Source: Microbacterium paraoxydans
GTDB lineage: Bacteria > Actinomycetota > Actinomycetes > Actinomycetales > Microbacteriaceae
Direction of reading: 5' to 3'
Length of the DNA: 64,000 bases
NCBI RefSeq assembly: GCF_020524545.1
Contig: NZ_JAIVLG010000005.1
Coordinates: 62,001 to 126,000 of the forward strand
The notes beneath the pieces are model-generated. The model saw only the letters and a program-made list of their open reading frames with translations, searched no databases and had not been told where the DNA came from. The stretch's first letter is position 1, and the number at the start of each line of letters is the position of its first letter. Position numbers and translations under genes: made by a program. Below are positions 2,143 through 11,845 of the stretch, piece after piece.

Positions 2143-3483
2143 TCAGCCAGCGGACAGGACCGCGACGGCCTCCTCACGCAGGCCGGCCGGGATCACGGCG
2201 ACCGTGCTGTCGTCAGCGGACCGCTCGGCGACGGAGCCGTCGGCCCAACGCAGGTCGGAGCCCGTGAGCTCTGCGGGCAGATCGAGCGTGCCGAGACTCG
2301 GGTCGAGAGCGTGCACGTGCACGGTCGAGCCCGTGGTCGTGTAGCGCCGTGGCGCTCCGGTCCGCTCGCCCATTCGGATCCACGGACGGGTGCCGTAGAT
2401 CGCCTCGCCGTTCGTCTCGAGCCACGAGCCCAGCTCGCGCATCGCACGCCGCTGCAGGTCCGGGATCGAGCCGTCGGCCGACGGACCCACGTTGATGAGC
2501 AGGTTGCCGTTCTTCGCGACGACATCGACGAGCAGGCGGATCAGGGCCGCCCCCGACAGCGAATGACGCTCGTCCTCCGCCTGGTTGAATCCGAAGGAGT
2601 AACCCAGACCGCGCGTCGACTCCCACGGCTCGGGGATGATCTCCGGGATATCCGTGTACTCGCGCGTGAGGAAGCCGTGGTACGGCACGCCCCAACGGTC
2701 GTTGACGACGCCCTCCGGCACGGCCTCGAAGTAGCGCTCCAGCAGCGCGGCCACCGCGTAGTCGTCGCGCCCCTTGCCCCCGTCCGGCCACTCGATGTCG
2801 TTCCAGAGCACGTCGGGTGAGAAACGTTCGACCAGCTCGTCCAGCTGAGCTGCCGAGTACCGCGCGAAGTGGGCATCGTTGCGGCGGAAGCGGAACAGAT
2901 CGGTGTCGGACTCGATCGGCGGGAAGTCGCTCACATGCCAGTCGAGCGCGCCGGAGTAGTACACGCCGAACTTCGCGCCCGCGCGCCGGGTGGCGTCGTG
3001 GAACTCGGAGATCAGGTCACGGCGCGGCCCGCGGGCGACCGCGTTGAAGCCGGTGGTCTCCGTACCCCACAAGCAGAAGCCCTCGTGGTGCTTCGTGGTC
3101 GGGATGATGTACCTGGCCCCTGCGCCGACGAGCTCGCCGACGAAGGCATCCGCGTCGAACGCCGAGGCGTCCCACCGATCGGCGAGGTCCTCATACGATG
3201 TCCCCGGCCCGAACATGCGCTGATGACGCTCCCAGGTCGGACTCCCCGCGATCCGCACGGTGTTGCCGTACCACTCGGCGTACTGATGCCAGGCATATGC
3301 GTCCTCGGTCGGGATGTTCACTCCCTCGCCGTGCTGCACGGCCCACGCCGGCACGGAGTAGAGCCCCCAGTGCACGAAGAAGCCGAGCTTCGCATCGCGG
3401 TACCAGTCGGGCACGCTCTGCGTCGGGTACGTCGGAGCAACCGTGCCGAAGTCCGGTCCGGTGCGCTTCTCGAAGTTCATCAT
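2143..3483 (-). CDS. GH29 alpha-L-fucosidase
   Basis: This 446-residue protein hydrolyses alpha-L-fucosyl linkages by the retaining GH29 mechanism (family knowledge). Visible GH29 marks are KLGFFVHWGLYSVPAW at residues 32-47, TTKHHEGFCLW from ~129, and DVLWNDIEWP near 222-231, where the Asp of the WND motif is the expected nucleophile. No signal peptide is seen, so it should act in the cytoplasm on imported oligosaccharide. The ATG at 3483 overlaps the stop of the upstream M81 peptidase gene (ATGA), so the two are translationally coupled. It is the last gene of the six-gene transporter operon. The frame stays open upstream of 3483, but that part is antisense shadow of the peptidase gene. Confidence 0.9.
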   Translation of the reverse strand: MMNFEKRTGPDFGTVAPTYPTQSVPDWYRDAKLGFFVHWGLYSVPAWAVQHGEGVNIPTEDAYAWHQYAEWYGNTVRIAGSPTWERHQRMFGPGTSYEDLADRWDASAFDADAFVGELVGAGARYIIPTTKHHEGFCLWGTETTGFNAVARGPRRDLISEFHDATRRAGAKFGVYYSGALDWHVSDFPPIESDTDLFRFRRNDAHFARYSAAQLDELVERFSPDVLWNDIEWPDGGKGRDDYAVAALLERYFEAVPEGVVNDRWGVPYHGFLTREYTDIPEIIPEPWESTRGLGYSFGFNQAEDERHSLSGAALIRLLVDVVAKNGNLLINVGPSADGSIPDLQRRAMRELGSWLETNGEAIYGTRPWIRMGERTGAPRRYTTTGSTVHVHALDPSLGTLDLPAELTGSDLRWADGSVAERSADDSTVAVIPAGLREEAVAVLSAG

Positions 3484-5057
3484 GTGTTCGGCTCCTCTGC
3501 GGCTCCGCGGCGGACGACCACGGCTTTCAGATCGGGGTTCCCGTCGGGGTCGAAGGGGTAGACACCGGGACGCAGGCGGTGGTGCCCCAGGCGGAGGAGG
3601 TCCTGGTCGACACCCCCGGGAGTCAGCGCGAGGGTCCACCCCTCGGCGAGCTCGTACAACTCGGGCTCGAGGTAGCCGATCTTCACCACGACGATGTCCG
3701 CGGTCGTCGGCTCCAGCCCCAGCATTCGGAAGTCGGAGAGGAGATGGAACGGCTTGCGCCGCTCGGTGATGATGGCGTGCAGCCCGCCCGCAGCGATGAC
3801 GACCTGCGTGCCTGCGTCCGGATCGCCTTCGGTGATCGAGAACACGGTCCCGGTGATCGTCACCGGGCCGTGCGGCCCGGCGTCGACCCCTGCCCCGGCG
3901 TCCAGGGTCACCGTGGCACCGACTCCGGCATCGACCGCCCGAGCGACGGCCTCGCGGTCGAAGATCGATGCGACCAGGGTCGTGCGGCTGCCGTCGGTGA
4001 GTTCCGCACGGTCGAGCAGGTGCGCGAGAGTCCATGTCACATCGCCGGCCCCGCCCGCCGTCGGGTTGTCCCCCGAGTCCGAGATCAGATACGGGTGAGG
4101 TGCTCCGGGGGCGAGCGCTTTCTCGAGCGCCTCATCCAACGAGCCCGTCTCGGCGACGAACACGAAGTCCTCGCGAGCATCCCAGAACATGCCGGCGACA
4201 CGCTCGGCCTCACGCACGATCAGCGCGCGATCGTCACCGGTGACCACGACGTACGCCTGACAACGGGGCTCATCAGCCCACGCGTAGCCGATCCAGACCG
4301 AGGCATCGACGACTCCCGGAAGAGCCTCGATCTCGGGCAGCTGAGCGTAGATGCTGCGCGCGGGCTCCAGCCGCGTGCTCGTCTTCTCACCGGGGAGCAG
4401 GACCGGGACGGGCACCCACGCCACGAAGGGCCTACGACTCAGTGGATCGGCACCGTGCGGCCCGCGCAGTCGGGCGAGGAGGTTCCAGACCGCGCGCTCC
4501 TTGGTGTTCATCCAGTCCTCGTGCGGTGCCATCCGGTAGCACGTGAGCAGATCGACCGCGTCTCGCAGGACCTCGGAGACGTTGCCGTGCAGATCCATCG
4601 ACGTCGAGACGAGCGTGTCCGGCCCCAGTGCCTCCCGCACCGCGAGCGCGAGGTCGCCTTCGGCGTCGTCCAACCCGACGACGCTCATCGCACCGTGGAT
4701 GTCGAAGAAGAAGCCGTCGAAGGGACCGTGTTCGCGGATCCCCTCGACGATGGCATCCTTCATCCGTCGGTAGGTCTCGGGCGCGACGGCACCACCGGGC
4801 AGCGAGCGACCATGCGTGAGCGGCACCCACACGGCGGCCGCAGCGAGCTCACGTCCGTCGCCGAGGAACGGGTAGTAGCCGCGCAGCGCCTCGCCGGTGC
4901 GGACCGTGAAGGCCTCGTCCCCCGAGACATGCGGGGAGAAGGTGCTCGATTCGATGGATATACCGGCGATACCGATGCGAGGCTGCGCGAGCCCCCCGTC
5001 GGTGACGGTCGGAAGCGGTCCCATCCAGATCTCGTGGGCTTCGGGACGTGCGGTCAC
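3480..5057 (-). CDS. M81 family metallopeptidase (MlrC-like)
   Basis: A 525-residue protein of the M81/MlrC family, zinc hydrolases named for the microcystin-degrading enzyme; most members have unknown substrates. Family marks visible here are FFFDIHGAMSV (about residue 122), SMDLHGNVSE (about 155) and ISDSGDNPTAGGAGD (about 320), which include His/Asp residues expected to bind metal. The chosen GTG at 5057 has an AAGGAG Shine-Dalgarno 8 nt upstream. The gene sits between a ROK kinase and a fucosidase in a carbohydrate ABC operon, so its natural substrate may be an amide or peptide bond in a glycoconjugate (inference). No signal peptide is seen. Confidence 0.82.
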   Translation of the reverse strand: MTARPEAHEIWMGPLPTVTDGGLAQPRIGIAGISIESSTFSPHVSGDEAFTVRTGEALRGYYPFLGDGRELAAAAVWVPLTHGRSLPGGAVAPETYRRMKDAIVEGIREHGPFDGFFFDIHGAMSVVGLDDAEGDLALAVREALGPDTLVSTSMDLHGNVSEVLRDAVDLLTCYRMAPHEDWMNTKERAVWNLLARLRGPHGADPLSRRPFVAWVPVPVLLPGEKTSTRLEPARSIYAQLPEIEALPGVVDASVWIGYAWADEPRCQAYVVVTGDDRALIVREAERVAGMFWDAREDFVFVAETGSLDEALEKALAPGAPHPYLISDSGDNPTAGGAGDVTWTLAHLLDRAELTDGSRTTLVASIFDREAVARAVDAGVGATVTLDAGAGVDAGPHGPVTITGTVFSITEGDPDAGTQVVIAAGGLHAIITERRKPFHLLSDFRMLGLEPTTADIVVVKIGYLEPELYELAEGWTLALTPGGVDQDLLRLGHHRLRPGVYPFDPDGNPDLKAVVVRRGAAEEPNT

Positions 5058-5091
5058 GTGATGTGCTCCTTGTCGGTGCGAGAGGTCGGGC

Positions 5092-6066
5092 TCACTGTGC
5101 TCCCACCGGCACCAGGGCTCGGCGGGCTGTCTCGATGGCGCCGAGGGCGACGGCATCGGAACCGAGGACGGCGGGGACGATGCGCAACGGGATGCCCGAC
5201 ACCGGAGAGTCCGTGCGCAGGGTACGCGAGATCGCGGGCTCCAGGAGATCCCAGGCCGTGGCCACGCCTCCCCCGACGATGGCGCACGGCAGGTCGAGGA
5301 TCGTCGCTGCGCTGGCGCAGGCGAGGGCGAGGGCGCGGCCGGCAGCGTCGAACACCGCGATCGCCTGGGCATCGCCCCCTCGTGCGCGATCCGCGACAGC
5401 CCTCGCGTCCAGCACGGTGTCCCCGGTGCGCTCCTGGTAACGCATCGCGATCGAGGTGCCGGAAGCCAGCGTCTCGAGATGTCCGACCTGCCCGCACGTG
5501 CAGACCAGTTCGCTGTAACCGGGCGTGTGCCCGATCTCGCCTGCGGCACCGTGTGGTCCGTGATGGAGATCACCGTCGATGAGAAGCGCGCCTCCGACCC
5601 CGGTGCCGAGCATCACGCCCAGAACATCGCGGTCCTCTCGGCCGGCGGCGGCAGCCTCGCCGAGGAGGAACGCGTTCACGTCGTTCTCCACGCGCACCGG
5701 TACTCCCAGACGTGCTTCGAGTTCATCGGCGAGCGGGAAGCCCGCCCACCCGACGAAGGTCGCCGATGCCGCACGGATCGTACCGCTCTCATGGTCGATG
5801 ACTCCGGCCGCGCCCACGCCGGCTGCGGCGAGCGAGACTCCGGCCTCGGCGGCCAAGGAGGCGGCCAGGCCCGCTGCCGCGTCGGCCATCGCTGCACCGC
5901 CTTCTGCCGCGGGGGCGCCGACGCTCCCCCGTGCCAGCACGGTGCCCTCTCCGGTCACCAGGAGCGCGGCGATCTTGGTACCGCCGATGTCGATACCGAC
6001 GACTCCCGAGTCGGGCGGGCTCGAACGGGTGCGGGGCACGGTGGTCCCCTGTTCCTGCGCGATCAT
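5092..6066 (-). CDS. ROK family sugar kinase
   Basis: A 324-residue ROK-fold kinase, expected to phosphorylate a hexose or N-acyl hexosamine with ATP. The N-terminal phosphate loop is GVVGIDIGGTK (residues ~20-30) and the catalytic region contains ENDVNAF. There is no N-terminal DNA-binding domain, which separates it from the ROK regulator at 9376. The usual zinc motif CxCGxxGCxE reads CTCGQVGHLE (about residue 190), with His in place of the third Cys. It starts 2 nt after the stop of the upstream permease gene, so it belongs to the same operon and likely phosphorylates the sugar released from the imported substrate. Sugar specificity cannot be read from sequence. Confidence 0.85.
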   Translation of the reverse strand: MIAQEQGTTVPRTRSSPPDSGVVGIDIGGTKIAALLVTGEGTVLARGSVGAPAAEGGAAMADAAAGLAASLAAEAGVSLAAAGVGAAGVIDHESGTIRAASATFVGWAGFPLADELEARLGVPVRVENDVNAFLLGEAAAAGREDRDVLGVMLGTGVGGALLIDGDLHHGPHGAAGEIGHTPGYSELVCTCGQVGHLETLASGTSIAMRYQERTGDTVLDARAVADRARGGDAQAIAVFDAAGRALALACASAATILDLPCAIVGGGVATAWDLLEPAISRTLRTDSPVSGIPLRIVPAVLGSDAVALGAIETARRALVPVGAQ

Positions 6067-6068
6067 GC

Positions 6069-6977
6069 TCAGCGGCCGCCCAGTCCTGCCATCGCGATGC
6101 CCTTGACGAGGTGCTTCTGCAGCACGATCACGAGAATCGTCGTTGGCACCATCGAGATGATCGCCGCGGCCATCTGCAGGTCCCACCGTGTGCCGGTGAG
6201 TCCGGCGAAGCTCGCGAGCCCCACGGGAAGGGTGCCGTGGGCGTTGTAGTCGACCGTCACGATGAGCGGCCACAGGTAGCTGTTCCAGAACGAGAGGAAG
6301 GTGAACACGGCGAGCACAGCGACCGCCGATTTCGACAGCGGCAGGATGATCTGCAGGAACGAGCGCACGGGCCCGGCACCGTCGACGCGTGCGGCCTCCT
6401 CCAGCTCGTAGGGGATCCCGCGGAAGAACTGCCGCATCAGGAACGTGCCGAACGCGCCGAATGCGAACGGAAGCACGAGGGCCTGATACGTGTCGACCCA
6501 GTTGAACCACTGCATCACCTGGAACATTGGGATCACGAGCACTTCGGCGGGAACCATGAGCGTGGCGAGGAACAGCACGAAGACAGCGTCCCGCCCCTTC
6601 CAGCGCAACCTCCCGAACGCGTACCCGGCCGTGGTCGACACGATCAGCACGACGAGCGTGCCAAGGATCGCGACGATGAACGAGTTCATGATGTAGGTCA
6701 GGAACGGACCGTAGGCGAAGACATCGACGAAGTTGCTCCACCGCAGCTCCGACCCCACCAGGGTCGGCGGCATCGAGAACATCTCCGAGTTCGGCTTGAG
6801 CGCCGAGAAGAACGCGTAGACCAGCGGCGAGATGAAGATCAGCGCGGCGACATAGATCGCGATGTGCGCGAGGATCAGCCGTACGCGGGCTCCCGGTGTG
6901 CTGGCGGCACCACGTGCGCGCTCGCGCTCCGTGCGGCCGGCACGACCTGTGGGGCGGACGAGGGTCTCAGTGCTCAT
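6069..6977 (-). CDS. Carbohydrate ABC transporter permease (MalG-type)
   Basis: A 302-residue inner-membrane permease with about six hydrophobic segments after a ~35-residue charged cytoplasmic N-terminus. The cytoplasmic EAA loop that contacts the ATPase is visible as EEAARVDGAGPVRSF near residue 190. This is the CUT1 (MalG) partner of the permease encoded just upstream, and the two reading frames overlap by 11 nt. No ATP-binding subunit is encoded in the operon. As in many actinobacteria, a shared MsiK-type ATPase elsewhere probably energises the system (inference). The imported solute is likely a fucose-bearing or related glycan, judging from the downstream enzymes. Confidence 0.9.
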   Translation of the reverse strand: MSTETLVRPTGRAGRTERERARGAASTPGARVRLILAHIAIYVAALIFISPLVYAFFSALKPNSEMFSMPPTLVGSELRWSNFVDVFAYGPFLTYIMNSFIVAILGTLVVLIVSTTAGYAFGRLRWKGRDAVFVLFLATLMVPAEVLVIPMFQVMQWFNWVDTYQALVLPFAFGAFGTFLMRQFFRGIPYELEEAARVDGAGPVRSFLQIILPLSKSAVAVLAVFTFLSFWNSYLWPLIVTVDYNAHGTLPVGLASFAGLTGTRWDLQMAAAIISMVPTTILVIVLQKHLVKGIAMAGLGGR

Positions 6978-7872
6978 AGTGCACCCACTTCTTCTGCGCG
7001 GCGAACTGGATCCCGGTGATCGCGATGATGATCGCGAAGAGGATCCACGCTGCCGCGGCGGCGAGGCCGAGGTCGCCGAACGTGAACCCCTGCTCCCAGA
7101 TGTACATGACGAGCGGTTTGGTGGCGTTGCCGGGACCGCCGCCGGTGAGCATCTGCGGCTGCACGAACACCTGCAGGGACGTGATCATCGTCATGATCGT
7201 GGCGAAGAAGATCGAGGGCGAGATCATCGGGATGATGATGCTCCACACGCGTCGGAGCCCTCGGGCGCCATCGATGCTGGCTGCTTCGAGAACGCTCTCG
7301 GGGAGCTGCTCGAGAGCAGCCGAGAAGATCAGCATGTTGTAGCCGAGCCCCTGCCAGACGCTCATCACGACGACCATGATCATCGCCCACGACGGGTCGG
7401 CCAGGAAGTTCGGCAGCTCGATGCCGAACCACGTCTGCGAGAGGCCGTTGAACAACCCCTGCGGCTGCAGCATCATCTTCCACACCAGCACGTTCGCGAC
7501 CATCGGGGTCACGACCGGGATGAAGAAGAGGACGCGCAGGGCACCTCGACCGCGGATCCGCGATCCGAGGCCGAGAGCGAGCACGAGCGAGAGAGCGACG
7601 CTCAACGGCACGTACAGCAGCGTGTACACCGCCGAGTTGCGCAGCGCGGGCCAGAAGTCCGGGCTGCTGGTGAACAGCTTGACGTAGTTGTCCACCCCGT
7701 TGAAGCTCCGCTCGCCGAAGGTCGGCCAGTCGAAGACGCTCATCACGATCGAAAGGCCCACGGGCACGATCGTGAACAGGGCGAGCCCGATCAGGGCGGG
7801 GCTTGCGAACCCCAGCGCCTGACCGGCCTCGACCTTGGCGAGCGATCGTCGACGTCTCGTCGTGATCGTCAT
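6967..7872 (-). CDS. Carbohydrate ABC transporter permease (MalF-type)
   Basis: A 301-residue CUT1 permease of the MalF class. It has a hydrophobic segment after ~20 residues, a typical YTLLYVPLSVALSL membrane span, and the EAA loop LEAASIDGARGLRRV near residue 195. It pairs with the MalG-type protein whose start lies inside its 3' end. A 42-nt gap separates it from the solute-binding-protein gene upstream, consistent with one transcript that starts before 9174 and runs down to the fucosidase. Confidence 0.9.
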   Translation of the reverse strand: MTITTRRRRSLAKVEAGQALGFASPALIGLALFTIVPVGLSIVMSVFDWPTFGERSFNGVDNYVKLFTSSPDFWPALRNSAVYTLLYVPLSVALSLVLALGLGSRIRGRGALRVLFFIPVVTPMVANVLVWKMMLQPQGLFNGLSQTWFGIELPNFLADPSWAMIMVVVMSVWQGLGYNMLIFSAALEQLPESVLEAASIDGARGLRRVWSIIIPMISPSIFFATIMTMITSLQVFVQPQMLTGGGPGNATKPLVMYIWEQGFTFGDLGLAAAAAWILFAIIIAITGIQFAAQKKWVHYEH

Positions 7873-7914: not shown

Positions 7915-9174
7915 TCACTCGCCGAACTGGGCCTGGGCGTTCGACAGCAGCTCTTCCATCGTCATCTGACCGTTGTAGACACTGACGAGATTGGGCTGGA
8001 TGTAGCTGTCGAGCTTCTGCCAGTTCTTGGTCATGTAGAGCGGGACGGTGTCACCGAACGCGGCCTCGAACACCGACTGCACCTGGTCGCGGTACTGCTC
8101 GTCGATGGACTCGAAGTACAGCGGCTGCGACGACGTGCGTGCCGGGTACGAGCGACCGGACGACGCGATGTAGTCCTGCGCGTCCTCACCGAGCAGCGAG
8201 CCCATGACCTTGAGAGCCGCCTCCGGGTTCTCGCAGTTCGACGAGATGCCGTACCCGGAGCCGAGGATCGGGCCGGGGTTGCCGTCGACGCCGGCCGGCA
8301 GCGGGACCATGCCGGCGGCGAAGCCGGACTCGTTGTTCAGGTAGCTGACGGCGTTCCACGTGCCGTCGACCGCCATGGCGGCGTTGCCACCGGTGTACTG
8401 GTTCTCGCCCCAGCCGGTGTCGGAGGCGGACGCCACGGGAGCGGCGACCTTCTTCTCCGTCACGAGCTCGGCGTACCAGGTGGATGCATCCACGAAGGCC
8501 TCGTCGTCGATGTGCAGCGTGCCGTCTTCAGCCGCGGGCTGCGTCGCGGAGTAGGCGATCGGCATCGACATCCACTGATAGCCTCCCATGCCCATACCGA
8601 AGCCGTACTTGCCGTCCTTCGTCGCGTCGGCGGCGATGGCGTCGAAGTCGTCGAACGTCCACCCGATCTCCGGCGTCGCAGCGCCGCCAGCCGTGAGCAT
8701 GTCCTGGTTGTAGTAGACGAGCATCGTGGCCACGTCGAACGGAACGCCGTAGACCTTGCCCTCGAAGCTGAGGATGCCGTCGGCGCTCGGGTTGAAGTCC
8801 GCCCAGTCGATGCCGGCCGTCTTGAGGTCGGCGTCGCTCAGCTCACGGAAAGCGCCGGTGTACCCACCCAGCTGCGCACCGCTCATGCCGGTGACGCAGG
8901 CCATGTTGCCGCTGGCCATGTTCGTGGTCAGCTTGGTGAAGAAGTCGCTCCACGGCGACGTCTGCAGCTTGATCTTGATGTCGGGGTTCTGCTCCTGGGC
9001 GAACGCGACCTGCGCCTCGAGGGCATCCACATCGGACTCGCTGCCTGCCCACATGTCGACGACGATCGTGTCGCCGTCGGCCGAACCGCCGTTGCCGCTG
9101 CTGCTCGCGCAGCCGGTCATCGCGACTGCGACGCCGGTGACGGCGACGACAGCCCCTACACGCAACTTCTTCAT
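7915..9174 (-). CDS. Sugar ABC transporter solute-binding lipoprotein
   Basis: A 419-residue extracytoplasmic binding protein. Residues 1-22 are a lipoprotein signal: positive KKLR, a hydrophobic core and a Cys in AMTGCASSS. This should anchor the mature protein to the outer face of the membrane. The rest has the type 1 bacterial extracellular solute-binding protein look ([19 protein letters not shown] near the N-terminus, then the [19 protein letters not shown] hinge-type segment). It is the first gene of the operon; expression probably responds to the inverted repeats directly upstream (9195-9290). The start codon has a GGAGGCATTCA leader. Confidence 0.92.
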
Positions 9175-9194: not shown

Positions 9195-9226
9195 ACTAGT
9201 TATTTCGCGGGTCGAAATAACCTAGT
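9195..9226. promoter_or_regulatory. Inverted repeat, candidate ROK-regulator operator
   Basis: TTATTTCG (9200-9207) and CGAAATAA (9213-9220) are perfect 8-base arms around CGGGT. The symmetry continues outward as ACTAG/CTAGT with one extra base. It is AT-rich in a GC-rich genome and sits 21-52 nt before the binding-protein start. ROK repressors such as NagC and XylR bind TTT/AAA-type dyads, so the adjacent ROK regulator is the obvious candidate binder. Confidence 0.6.
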
Positions 9227-9234
9227 AGGATTTC

Positions 9235-9256
9235 GTATGAAGTTACCGTTTCATAC
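9235..9256. promoter_or_regulatory. Second inverted repeat in the divergent regulatory region
   Basis: GTATGAA (9235-9241) and TTCATAC (9250-9256) form perfect 7-base arms with an 8-nt spacer. It lies between the candidate ROK operator and the ACATC/GATGT site. It could be another protein-binding site; no binder can be named. Confidence 0.45.
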
Positions 9257-9277: not shown

Positions 9278-9290
9278 AACATCCGATGTT
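9278..9290. promoter_or_regulatory. AACATC-C-GATGTT palindrome, copy 1 of a shared operator
   Basis: A perfect 6+1+6 palindrome between the divergent transporter and ROK-repressor genes. The 11-base core ACATCCGATGT is repeated exactly at 11832-11842, in front of the second fucosidase. A shared core at two co-functional promoters points to a common transcription factor not obviously encoded in this window. Confidence 0.6.
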
Positions 9291-9340
9291 TATCGGAGCT
9301 TGATAATTCGTAACTCCCGGGAAACACGACCATCGCCTAC

Positions 9341-9346
9341 TACGCT
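9341..9346 (+). promoter_or_regulatory. Candidate -10 box of the ROK repressor
   Basis: TACGCT ends 5 nt before an in-frame ATG at 9352 and 29 nt before the preferred start at 9376. Transcription would begin near 9352, giving either a leaderless 391-residue form or a short leader with the AGGAAAG ribosome site. Confidence 0.45.
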
Positions 9347-9375
9347 GACGAATGCTCCGACCAGGAAAGTGCCCC

Positions 9376-10527
9376 ATGCCAAACCCCGCTGACACCGCCG
9401 TCGACGACCCGCACACCCGCCGCATCCTCGACCTCGTAGCGCGCGGCGAGGCCCGTTCCCGCACCGAGCTCGCCGCTGCCCTCGGCGTGGCCGCCTCGAC
9501 AGTGGGGCTCCGAGTGCAGTCCCTGCTCGACGCCGGAGTGCTGCGCGAGGCCGGCGACGGCACGTCTCGCGGCGGACGCCGTCCGCGAGTGCTGCAGATC
9601 GCCGCGGACGGCGTCGTCCTCACCGCCGATCTCGGTGGCGGTCACGCGCGCATCGGCAGGCACTCCCTCAGCGGCGCCCTCCTGGACAGCCGGTCGATCA
9701 CGGTCGACGTCGCCGACGGGCCGGAAGCCACCCTCGAGCGCATCGGCCAAGTATTCGATCGCCTCGCCTCCGAGGCGCGGGTGCACGCGATCGGTATCAG
9801 CCTCCCCGGCCCCGTCGACATCGCCACCGGCACGGTCGACCAACCGTCGCGTATGCCGGGGTGGCCGGGCTTCCGCGTGGGCGAGCATCTCTCGACGCGC
9901 TACGGCGTGCCCGTCGCCGTCGACAACGATGCCAACCTCGCGGCACTCGGCGAGCATAGGGAGCGCTTCGGACACACGGGACACAGCATCACCGTGAAGG
10001 CCGGAACCGCCATCGGCAGCGGCATCATCGTCGACGGCCATGTGCACCGCGGGGCGACCGCGGCCGCAGGCGACATCACCCACACCCGCATCGACGGCAG
10101 CGGCGACATCCCCTGCTCCTGCGGGAACACGGGCTGCCTCGAGACGGTGGCCAGCGGGGCGAGCCTCGTGCGGCAGATGCGCGAGCGTGGAAACGAGCTG
10201 GTAGGAACCACGACAGATGTGCTCAGCCTGGCACGCGACGCCGACCCCCTCGCCACCACGCTGGTCCGCACGGCGGGAACCCATCTCGGCCAGGCATTGT
10301 CGGGCGTGGTGAACTTCTTCAATCCGCACGCCGTGTTCCTGACCGGCAGCATGAGCGCGTCGGAGCCCTTCATCGCTGCTGTCCGCAGCCGCGTGTATGA
10401 GGCATGCCACCCCCTCGCGACGCAGCGACTGCGCATCGAGGCGGCGACGACCGGTGCGGACGCCATCCTCCACGGCGCCGCGCGCCTCGCCCTCGAAGGC
10501 ATGGATATCCCGGTGGCGACCGCCTGA
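9376..10527 (+). CDS. ROK family transcriptional regulator
   Basis: A 383-residue NagC/XylR-type repressor. Residues ~10-65 form a winged helix-turn-helix (RTELAAALGVAASTVGLRV), and a ROK sugar-sensing domain fills the rest. The canonical zinc motif CSCGNTGCLE is present near residue 245, unlike in the kinase of the same locus. The start at 9376 is preferred because AGGAAAG lies 7 nt upstream; an ATG at 9352 is in frame and would add eight residues. The gene diverges from the ABC/fucosidase operon and probably represses it, with a sugar or sugar phosphate as inducer (inference). Its stop codon lies inside a terminator hairpin. Confidence 0.88.
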   Translation: MPNPADTAVDDPHTRRILDLVARGEARSRTELAAALGVAASTVGLRVQSLLDAGVLREAGDGTSRGGRRPRVLQIAADGVVLTADLGGGHARIGRHSLSGALLDSRSITVDVADGPEATLERIGQVFDRLASEARVHAIGISLPGPVDIATGTVDQPSRMPGWPGFRVGEHLSTRYGVPVAVDNDANLAALGEHRERFGHTGHSITVKAGTAIGSGIIVDGHVHRGATAAAGDITHTRIDGSGDIPCSCGNTGCLETVASGASLVRQMRERGNELVGTTTDVLSLARDADPLATTLVRTAGTHLGQALSGVVNFFNPHAVFLTGSMSASEPFIAAVRSRVYEACHPLATQRLRIEAATTGADAILHGAARLALEGMDIPVATA

Positions 10528-10541
10528 GCGGCCGCCACCGG
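10510..10541. terminator. Bidirectional terminator overlapping the ROK regulator stop codon
   Basis: CCGGTGGCGACCGC (10510-10523) pairs with GCGGCCGCCACCGG (10528-10541) with one mismatch and a 4-nt loop. The loop contains the TGA stop. It separates the convergent repressor and second fucosidase. Confidence 0.65.
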
Positions 10542-10546
10542 ACGAA

Positions 10547-11812
10547 TCACTCCTCGTTGAGCGTCAGCTCGATGACAGGCACGAGGACCTCGGGACGCCG
10601 CACAGGCAGATGCACGGTGAGCGTCCCCTCCGCCTCCCCTGCGGGAGTCATCAGGTCGGCTTGGCGGTCCGGGTCGGACACGCTGGTCTGCAGCCAGGAC
10701 CCGTCGTTCAGCAGGCGCGCATAGGAGACCTTCCCTGCGAGCCCCGGAAGGTGCACGAATCCCATCGGCCAGCTGAACAGACTCAGGTAGAGCCTGTTCC
10801 CTCGGCGGGTGTACACGCCTTCGCGCGGCGGTGTGAACGGTGCGTGCCCGGCACCGATCACGGCGTCCCGGTGCAGACGCATCCACTCGCCGATCTCGGC
10901 AAGTGTACGGGCATCCCTCGGCGCGATCGCACCGCGACCGTCAGGGCCGATGTTGAGCAGCATGTTCCCACCCATCGACACCGAGTCGACGAGCATCTGC
11001 ACGAGCAGCGTGGGGGACTTCTGATCCATGTTGTCCCGGTGATAACCCCACGATCCGTTGAGCGTCTGGCACGCCTCCCAGGTCAACTGCACGCCGTCGC
11101 GCACGATCGGCGCCGTGGGCTGATACTGCTCCGGCGTGACGAAGTCGGCGGGGATCCCGAGCCGATCGTTCACCAACATGTTCGGCTGGAGCTCCCGACA
11201 CAGGGCGAGCAGCGCGGTGGCGTCCCAGTCGTCCGGCCCCTTACCCACCCACCCCTCTTTCGTCTCGGGGTAGGTGAAGTCGAAGAACAGGTAGTCGATC
11301 TCCCCATACTCCGTGAGAAGCTCTCGCACCTGTCCGTGGAGGTAGGCACGGTATCGCGCCATGTCACGCCCGACATTGAGCTCCTGGGCGTTCGCATCAT
11401 CGCGGCGCGGATGGTTCCAGTCGATCGTGAAGTCGGGGTGATGCCAGTCGATCACCGAGTGGTACAGGCCCACCTTGAGACCTTCCGCGCGCAGCGCGTC
11501 TACGTACTCGCGGACGAGGTCCCGTCCGACGTTCGCGACAGAGGTGAAGTCGGTGAGCTTCGAGTCCCACAGGCAGAAGCCGTCATGGTGCTTCGTCGTG
11601 AGCACGACGTAGCCCATGCCGGTCTCCTTCGCGGCGCGCGCGAGGGCCGCAGCATCGAAGAGATCCGGGTCGAAGTGCTCGAAATACGGGCGGTAGTCCT
11701 CATCCGACAAACGTTCGTAGTTCTGCACCCATTCATGACGGGCCGCCCCGCTGTAGAGGCCGAAGTGGACGAACATCCCGAACCGAGCCTGGTCAAACCA
11801 TTCCTGTCGCAT
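10547..11812 (-). CDS. Second GH29-family alpha-L-fucosidase
   Basis: A 421-residue GH29 relative with RFGMFVHFGLYSG near residue 10, LTTKHHDGFCLW near 71, and DYLFFDFTYPE, whose Asp occupies the nucleophile position. It differs from the 2143-3483 enzyme in lacking the long N-terminal segment and in having FFD instead of WND at the nucleophile, so the two probably prefer different linkages or aglycones (inference). ATG 11812 is chosen because AGGA lies 8 nt upstream; ATG 11821 has CAGG directly abutting it. No signal peptide is visible. A 17-bp palindrome sits 17 nt upstream of the start and likely controls it. It is transcribed alone. Confidence 0.85.
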   Translation of the reverse strand: MRQEWFDQARFGMFVHFGLYSGAARHEWVQNYERLSDEDYRPYFEHFDPDLFDAAALARAAKETGMGYVVLTTKHHDGFCLWDSKLTDFTSVANVGRDLVREYVDALRAEGLKVGLYHSVIDWHHPDFTIDWNHPRRDDANAQELNVGRDMARYRAYLHGQVRELLTEYGEIDYLFFDFTYPETKEGWVGKGPDDWDATALLALCRELQPNMLVNDRLGIPADFVTPEQYQPTAPIVRDGVQLTWEACQTLNGSWGYHRDNMDQKSPTLLVQMLVDSVSMGGNMLLNIGPDGRGAIAPRDARTLAEIGEWMRLHRDAVIGAGHAPFTPPREGVYTRRGNRLYLSLFSWPMGFVHLPGLAGKVSYARLLNDGSWLQTSVSDPDRQADLMTPAGEAEGTLTVHLPVRRPEVLVPVIELTLNEE

Positions 11813-11828
11813 GGTTCCCATCCTGGCA

Positions 11829-11845
11829 CAGACATCCGATGTCTG
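11829..11845. promoter_or_regulatory. CAGACATC-C-GATGTCTG palindrome, copy 2 of the shared operator
   Basis: Perfect 8-base arms around a single C, placed 17 nt upstream of the fucosidase ATG, where a bound repressor would block transcription initiation. It shares the exact 11-base core ACATCCGATGT with 9278-9290. The form (short arms, one-base centre) is compatible with GntR- or LacI-type regulators; this is inference. Confidence 0.65.

Follow-up and report, generated by a model that had tools for sequence, protein, structure and literature searches.

A predicted L-fucose regulon under a FadR-type GntR regulator in Microbacterium paraoxydans

The subject of this work is a 64-kb stretch of DNA from Microbacterium paraoxydans (64,000 nucleotides of contig NZ_JAIVLG010000005.1, hereafter the window), and more precisely two palindromes within it that share an 11-base core, one between a sugar transporter operon and the gene of a ROK-family repressor, the other just upstream of an alpha-L-fucosidase gene. 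Both are very probably operators of a single regulon controlled by a FadR-type (FCD) repressor of the GntR family, FucR-like and named P0001 here, whose gene lies on another contig among predicted genes of L-fucose catabolism. Comparison of relatives shows one word, one regulator, a set of target genes and conserved positions, and it is from these that we infer direct binding, repression and an inducer.

Two palindromes and their probable regulator

Read letter by letter, the window contains the perfect palindrome AACATC-C-GATGTT at 9278-9290 and the 17-base palindrome CAGACATC-C-GATGTCTG at 11829-11845, exactly where the original prediction had placed them, with the common core ACATCCGATGT at 9279-9289 and 11832-11842.

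9278..9290: operator 1, AACATCCGATGTT, in the gap that separates the transporter operon from the ROK gene; the GntR-FCD fucose regulator is predicted to bind here
11829..11845, read on the minus strand: operator 2, CAGACATCCGATGTCTG, a short way before the second fucosidase gene

The window holds no third copy of the core ACATCNGATGT, even with one mismatch allowed, which bears out an earlier remark to that effect. Since shuffling predicts 1.52 copies with at most one mismatch, this count is uninformative; under a first-order Markov model, the expected number of exact copies per window is 0.054, with a probability of 0.0014 for two or more. The distance of 17 nt between operator 2 and the fucosidase ATG, also part of the original prediction, stands if the gene starts at 11812 but not if it starts, like the longest open reading frame (ORF), at 11821, and relatives leave the choice undecided because the query used to find them began at 11812.

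Both sites are kept in place by relatives. Among 30 ROK loci returned, the 26 with at least 58% identity were aligned, and operator 1 is perfect in 22 of them, the remaining four having a degenerate version in the corresponding position (the perfect core was not found in the four weakest loci, L175-L178, which were left out). As for the fucosidase, the best 30 of 38 rows of relatives were located (eight weaker rows are outside the count), and 26 of these genes have a perfect operator 2 core in their promoters. A conserved block, AGACATCcGATGTCTgTG.cAgGATgG, runs through 25 aligned fucosidase promoters, and the site is directly followed by a (C/T)AGGAT-like block resembling a -10 element, which in many relatives lies a few bases before the ATG.

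In the assembly of this organism (3.58 Mb in 17 contigs), the core occurs perfectly five times, and every occurrence can be assigned: the two in the window, two at the predicted fucose-catabolic locus and one beside a second GntR-FCD gene, P0002, so that four of the five are at fucose genes. The two catabolic copies, 153 bp apart, belong to an L-fuconate dehydratase/FAA-type hydrolase divergon, C1:175896 being intergenic between the two genes and C1:175743 lying inside the hydrolase gene. About 2.6 kb away is the gene of P0001 (G000:C1:172422-173108), in a stretch that also holds a fuconolactonase-like gene, an SDR and an aldo/keto reductase. The dehydratase matches L-fuconate dehydratase 1yey with an E value of 3e-189, and the genes beside P0001 fit a predicted non-phosphorylative L-fucose pathway made of dehydratase, lactonase, dehydrogenase and hydrolase.

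P0001 is a member of the GntR family and of its FadR (FCD) subfamily, with a GntR winged helix-turn-helix (wHTH; PF00392, 64.5 bits) and an FCD domain (PF07729, 91.3 bits), both above Pfam cut-offs. This membership rests on the protein and not on the word, because some members depart from the operator consensus of the subfamily, as stated in the available part of PMC4494728. The closest named relatives by P0001 are from Microbacterium (97-99% identity). Its AlphaFold model (mean pLDDT 81, pTM 0.63) supports an FCD fold, not the orientation of the domains, and the match to Protein Data Bank (PDB) folds is poor over the whole chain (TM-scores near 0.5, root-mean-square deviation near 10).

A further argument is that the word follows this regulator. 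Relatives of P0001 were examined in the best 80 of 134 loci (1.52 Mb), mostly from Microbacterium, nine of them from Micromonospora, Actinoplanes/Paractinoplanes, Pseudonocardia, Streptomyces and Actinoallomurus. These loci contain 138 perfect copies of the word. As GC-rich genes probably disfavour TGTAG/CTACA, the backwards word is a weak control (it matched in one of 119 genus genomes), and 29 permuted half-site dyads were therefore taken instead, 28 of which have no copy in these loci and one of which has two. At least one perfect copy is found in 72 of the 80 loci, including seven of the nine from other genera. Across the 119 genus genomes, the word is present at least once in 52 of the 53 with a P0001 ortholog, and at least twice in 49 of these 53 versus 10 of the 66 without (Fisher p about 1e-18, relatedness ignored). 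The ortholog threshold of at least 62% identity was chosen after seeing a gap down to 51%; G118 (51%) was counted as lacking an ortholog, and two G041 fragments were counted once. In the sole ortholog genome that lacks the word, G072, the regulator gene (G072:C3:527428-528105) contains a TAG.

The regulator may also be a target of its own. In 65 of 79 loci, the 90 nt before its gene contain a copy with no more than two mismatches (14 of these copies being perfect), compared with 2.8% of random stretches; one of the 80 loci was dropped from this count, its gene beginning at the locus edge. In a class-wide search, a P0001-like protein turned up in 65 of 296 genomes, and the 30 best loci have a perfect copy upstream of the regulator in nine cases and one with at most one mismatch in 17. 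Outside the genus too, P0001 relatives have a site, placed either before the regulator gene itself or at the dehydratase. Genomic organisation points the same way in five loci (L106, L107, L112, L113 and L115, Microbacterium azadirachtae among them) in which lactonase, regulator, SDR, hydrolase, dehydratase, aldo/keto reductase and fucosidase genes are clustered, joined in L106, L112, L113 and L115 by the ROK and transporter genes (L107 ends earlier). The same word at several pathway promoters, conserved in relatives that have the regulator, is what one predicted local-factor regulon would look like. The original prediction of a second regulator, encoded elsewhere and tying both transcription units together, has thus gained support, as the core follows a GntR-FCD gene that is located on a different contig and adjoins predicted fucose-catabolic genes, and genus genomes with those genes retain both window sites.

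Promoter geometry and a proposed mechanism

Before the dehydratase gene, a block TTGACAGTATAGACATC-N-GATGTTTACACT that includes the operator is found in 58 of 66 loci, and in these 58 promoters the operator fills the 18-bp spacer of TTGACA-N18-TACACT (-35/-10). TTGACA itself is present in 61 of the 66, the five loci without it (L141, L142, L144, L146 and L147) being non-Microbacterium, and 55 dehydratase promoters also carry TTGGAG-N17-TATACT on the opposite strand, towards the hydrolase. The position of the operator within the promoter spacer suggests a repressor, since a protein bound there would block both the dehydratase and the hydrolase promoters.

The copy inside the hydrolase gene (C1:175743; L001 1501-1511) spans codons T-S-D-V, and its Asp codon, the rare GAT, is kept in 58 of 62 aligned hydrolase genes, the next highest GAT share among 14 conserved Asp columns being 39%. 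Some loci, for example L106 and L113, have a mismatch in one arm of this intragenic site and keep GAT. The simplest reading is that selection acts here on the DNA. DNA looping between the hydrolase and dehydratase sites is not claimed, because their spacings (144-175 bp) lack a fixed helical phase.

The following mechanism is proposed. P0001 would bind ACATC-S-GATGT as a dimer and shut out RNA polymerase, at the divergon from a site in the promoter spacer and at the fucosidase from a site shortly before the start. With the arrival of fucosylated sugars, an acidic intermediate of the pathway would bind the FCD domain and DNA would be released, upon which the transporter/ROK, fucosidase and catabolic genes would switch on together. 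The inducer would most likely be L-fuconate or its dehydration product, 2-keto-3-deoxy-L-fuconate, since the ligands of the FadR subfamily are described as carboxylic acids in the part of PMC4494728 available to us. The transporter promoter would receive a second, local input from the ROK repressor.

This last element involves a separate dyad.

9200..9220: TTATTTCG-N5-CGAAATAA dyad beside the transporter start; probable ROK operator, only copy in the window

Its centre, TTCG-N5-CGAA, sits between operator 1 and the transporter start; 23 of 26 relatives have it in the aligned position and L171-L173 have variants, the full 8-base arms being perfect only in G000 and G014. The ROK repressor therefore probably uses this dyad of its own, in agreement with the original prediction, and with a plausible operator for ROK, uptake would answer two signals. 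Two other dyads were seen in the same region. One, GTATGAA-N8-TTCATAC, is at 9235-9256, between the ROK-type dyad and operator 1; a block AAGT.Acc.T.tCA is partly conserved in relatives, and this may be the mark of another regulator or a promoter element. The other, a GTGA-N7-TCAC-like dyad (GTGATACTTCGTCAC and similar), lies downstream of operator 1 and upstream of ROK in L159-L161 and L167.

A bolder reading, which we hold only tentatively and at somewhat below an even chance, is that a class-wide actinobacterial branch of FCD-GntR repressors (i) reads ACATC/GATGT arms where the FadR subfamily has GT..AC boxes, (ii) sorts the targets of paralogs by the centre base (C/G versus A/T), (iii) has in this genus an intragenic hydrolase operator that pins a rare codon and (iv) forms, with the local ROK repressor, a two-signal gate for the uptake and breakdown of fucosylated glycans.

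Points against the regulon and rival explanations

Several observations weigh against a regulon of P0001. Five exact copies per genome are not significant under the Markov model, which allows 3.0 (P(>=5) = 0.18; the empirical rate in genus genomes without the regulator is 46/66, or 0.70 copies per genome). The raw count was consequently rejected as proof, and it is position and conservation, not number, that make the case for real sites. The backwards control has no perfect copy in this genome; with one mismatch allowed, there are 41 places genome-wide versus six for that control, so near matches on their own mean little. At least one copy of the word occurs in 31 of the 66 genus genomes without an ortholog, and in two incomplete genomes, G030 (77%) and G039 (44%), no GntR ortholog was detected, yet each has a close ROK ortholog and copies of the word, two in G030 and one in G039. 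Perfect copies are missing from the fetched DNA of eight of the 80 best loci (some being short contigs) and from four of 14 wider loci. In the genome under study, the promoter of P0001 itself has only an asymmetric, two-mismatch site, GAGACATCCGATCAATC, and in nine of the 30 class-level loci the site upstream of the regulator has three or more mismatches. On the metabolic side, the lactonase, dehydrogenase and hydrolase score below the curated NCBIfam equivalog cut-offs, and the best equivalog of the hydrolase is one from the rhamnonate pathway. Finally, the word is not exclusive to P0001: it is kept in six of 11 loci with P0002 orthologs (the centre being always A/T), and regulators about 50% identical carry it near non-fucose genes (L250 2146, L251 2106, L252 14608). 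The genomes of the latter three are of 2.2-2.4 Mb, with the word near SDR or other genes and no recognised fucose genes; the L250 and L252 loci also hold biotin-carboxylase-type genes, and L250 an AMP-ligase.

Among the rivals, the one that survives best, unlikely as we judge it, concerns only the mode of action: at operator 1, P0001 would be an activator or a roadblock, not a classical repressor. Operator 1 is indeed 103 bp from the transporter start codon and 57 bp outside the ROK-type dyad, and FadR of Escherichia coli acts as a dual regulator. The geometry at the dehydratase promoter is that of a repressor, however, and in the close relatives L149-L155 a -10-like TTGATAAT for ROK follows operator 1, which may therefore act on ROK instead.

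That P0002, or another FCD paralog, binds the fucose sites, alone or together with P0001, is quite improbable. P0002 is 29% identical to P0001, has the same domain make-up and, in the six loci just mentioned, carries the core in the divergent promoter of its own gene; in this genome that is the fifth perfect copy (G000:C8:43836; L007 5837-5847), centred on A, between the P0002 gene and an ABC (ATP-binding cassette) operon of the SBP_bac_5 (peptide) type. However, P0002 orthologs (E <= 1e-70) occur in 11 of the 119 genus genomes and word copies in 83, its sites are A/T-centred in six out of six cases (a small set) whereas P0001-linked sites are C/G-centred in 137 of 138, and P0001 relatives carry the site beyond the genus as well. 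As a side observation, the fifth copy may mark a separate regulon of P0002 with a nearly identical word.

Even less probable is the neighbouring ROK repressor as the protein that binds ACATCNGATGT and the sole regulator of the regulon. What speaks for it is the conserved place of operator 1 between the transporter and ROK genes, together with the two incomplete genomes above. Set against this are the word's presence in 28 of 29 genus genomes with a GntR ortholog and without a close ROK ortholog, the sites at the dehydratase in L141, L142, L146 and L147 (no ROK match in the fetched DNA) and the separately conserved TTCG-N5-CGAA. The last rival, in which the two copies arose by chance or belong to RNA hairpins, has only the Markov expectation of three exact copies per genome in its favour and can be dismissed for practical purposes, given positions kept in 22/26 and 26/30 relatives though the surrounding intergenic DNA has diverged, and a word tied to one regulator gene.

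Genes around the operators and known systems

The genes flanking the two operators are as follows.

2143..4035, minus strand: ORF with the first GH29 alpha-L-fucosidase; real gene probably shorter at its 5' end
3480..5573, minus strand: ORF with an M81/MlrC-like metallopeptidase; real gene probably shorter at its 5' end
5092..6741, minus strand: ORF with a ROK-family protein in its C-terminal part; real start probably near 6060
6069..6977, minus strand: ABC transporter permease
6967..7872, minus strand: ABC transporter permease
7915..9174, minus strand: ABC transporter solute-binding protein (SBP_bac_1), first gene of the transporter operon
9376..10527, plus strand: ROK-family transcriptional repressor, helix-turn-helix (HTH) and ROK domain
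10547..11812, minus strand: second GH29 alpha-L-fucosidase, target of operator 2

The start near 6060 is proposed because of the position of the domain, and Pfam finds no DNA-binding domain in the ROK-type protein of this ORF; an M81/MlrC-like peptidase and an HTH-less ROK protein are thus found at 3480-6741, within the string of fucosidase and transporter genes. After the second fucosidase gene, the next is ilvC.

By sequence or fold, the PDB matches of P0001 include LldR/Cgl2915 (2di3), TM0439 (3fms, 3sxy), PmiR (7xp0) and Atu1419 (6za3), with which it shares the wHTH and FCD domains and palindromic operators. Unlike LldR and DhdR, which have an Arg at the aligned position, P0001 orthologs have Lys, Ala or Ser (25 of 25 aligned). 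According to the accessible portion of PMC4494728, the FadR-subfamily consensus consists of TKGT/ACMA boxes with GT and AC mostly 3 nt apart. In contrast, the 138 sites linked to P0001 read ACATC-N-GATGT and do not conform to TKGT/ACMA with GT-N2-3-AC, which would place the word among the exceptions mentioned in that source.

The interest of the system is that (i) for the use of L-fucose it puts names to a regulator, an operator and a set of genes in Microbacterium and, through related genes, in a wider part of the class, (ii) the predicted regulon ties import and trimming of fucose-bearing sugars to fucose breakdown, (iii) it offers a test case for FCD regulators that do not follow the GT..AC rule and for the control of glycan uptake by two repressors and (iv) an operator in coding sequence would let regulation constrain the choice of codons.

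Among the open-access papers listed (titles and starts of abstracts), no actinobacterial fucose regulator of the GntR family came up, nor, among the titles listed, was the word tied to such a regulator, and no paper was found for comparison with Bacillus subtilis LutR. FucR regulons have been predicted in Bifidobacterium (PMC4746261), Halomonas and other mat bacteria (PMC5507952) and Caldicellulosiruptor (PMC8579813), and in what is available of these reports they are likewise local factors for fucose genes found by comparison, the mat bacteria sharing the oxidative fucose pathway (PMC5507952) and Caldicellulosiruptor the position of a repressor (PMC8579813). For none of these do the descriptions consulted state a protein family or an operator word. 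That the Bifidobacterium FucR is the same regulator is unsupported, no P0001-like match being listed among 'same order' genomes; a paper on NagR contains no FucR.

The non-phosphorylative L-fucose pathway of Xanthomonas campestris, named in the part of PMC5507952 at hand, offers the closest metabolic parallel, with an L-fuconate dehydratase (1yey/2hxt) that is the match reported above and, here, adjoining lactonase, SDR and FAA-hydrolase genes. It differs in that the genes described here are predicted to share their regulation with those of a sugar ABC transporter, a GH29 fucosidase and a ROK repressor. As for the regulator, FucR of Bacteroides thetaiotaomicron (BT1272) is also of the GntR family and governs fucose use, according to the portion of PMC3878776 available; it differs, as far as that description goes (the two were compared by description only), in controlling one operon and a pathway that ends in lactaldehyde and glycerone phosphate. 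GntR-type fucose regulators are therefore known from Bacteroides, and what is new here is a predicted regulon with a word outside the usual FadR-type consensus.

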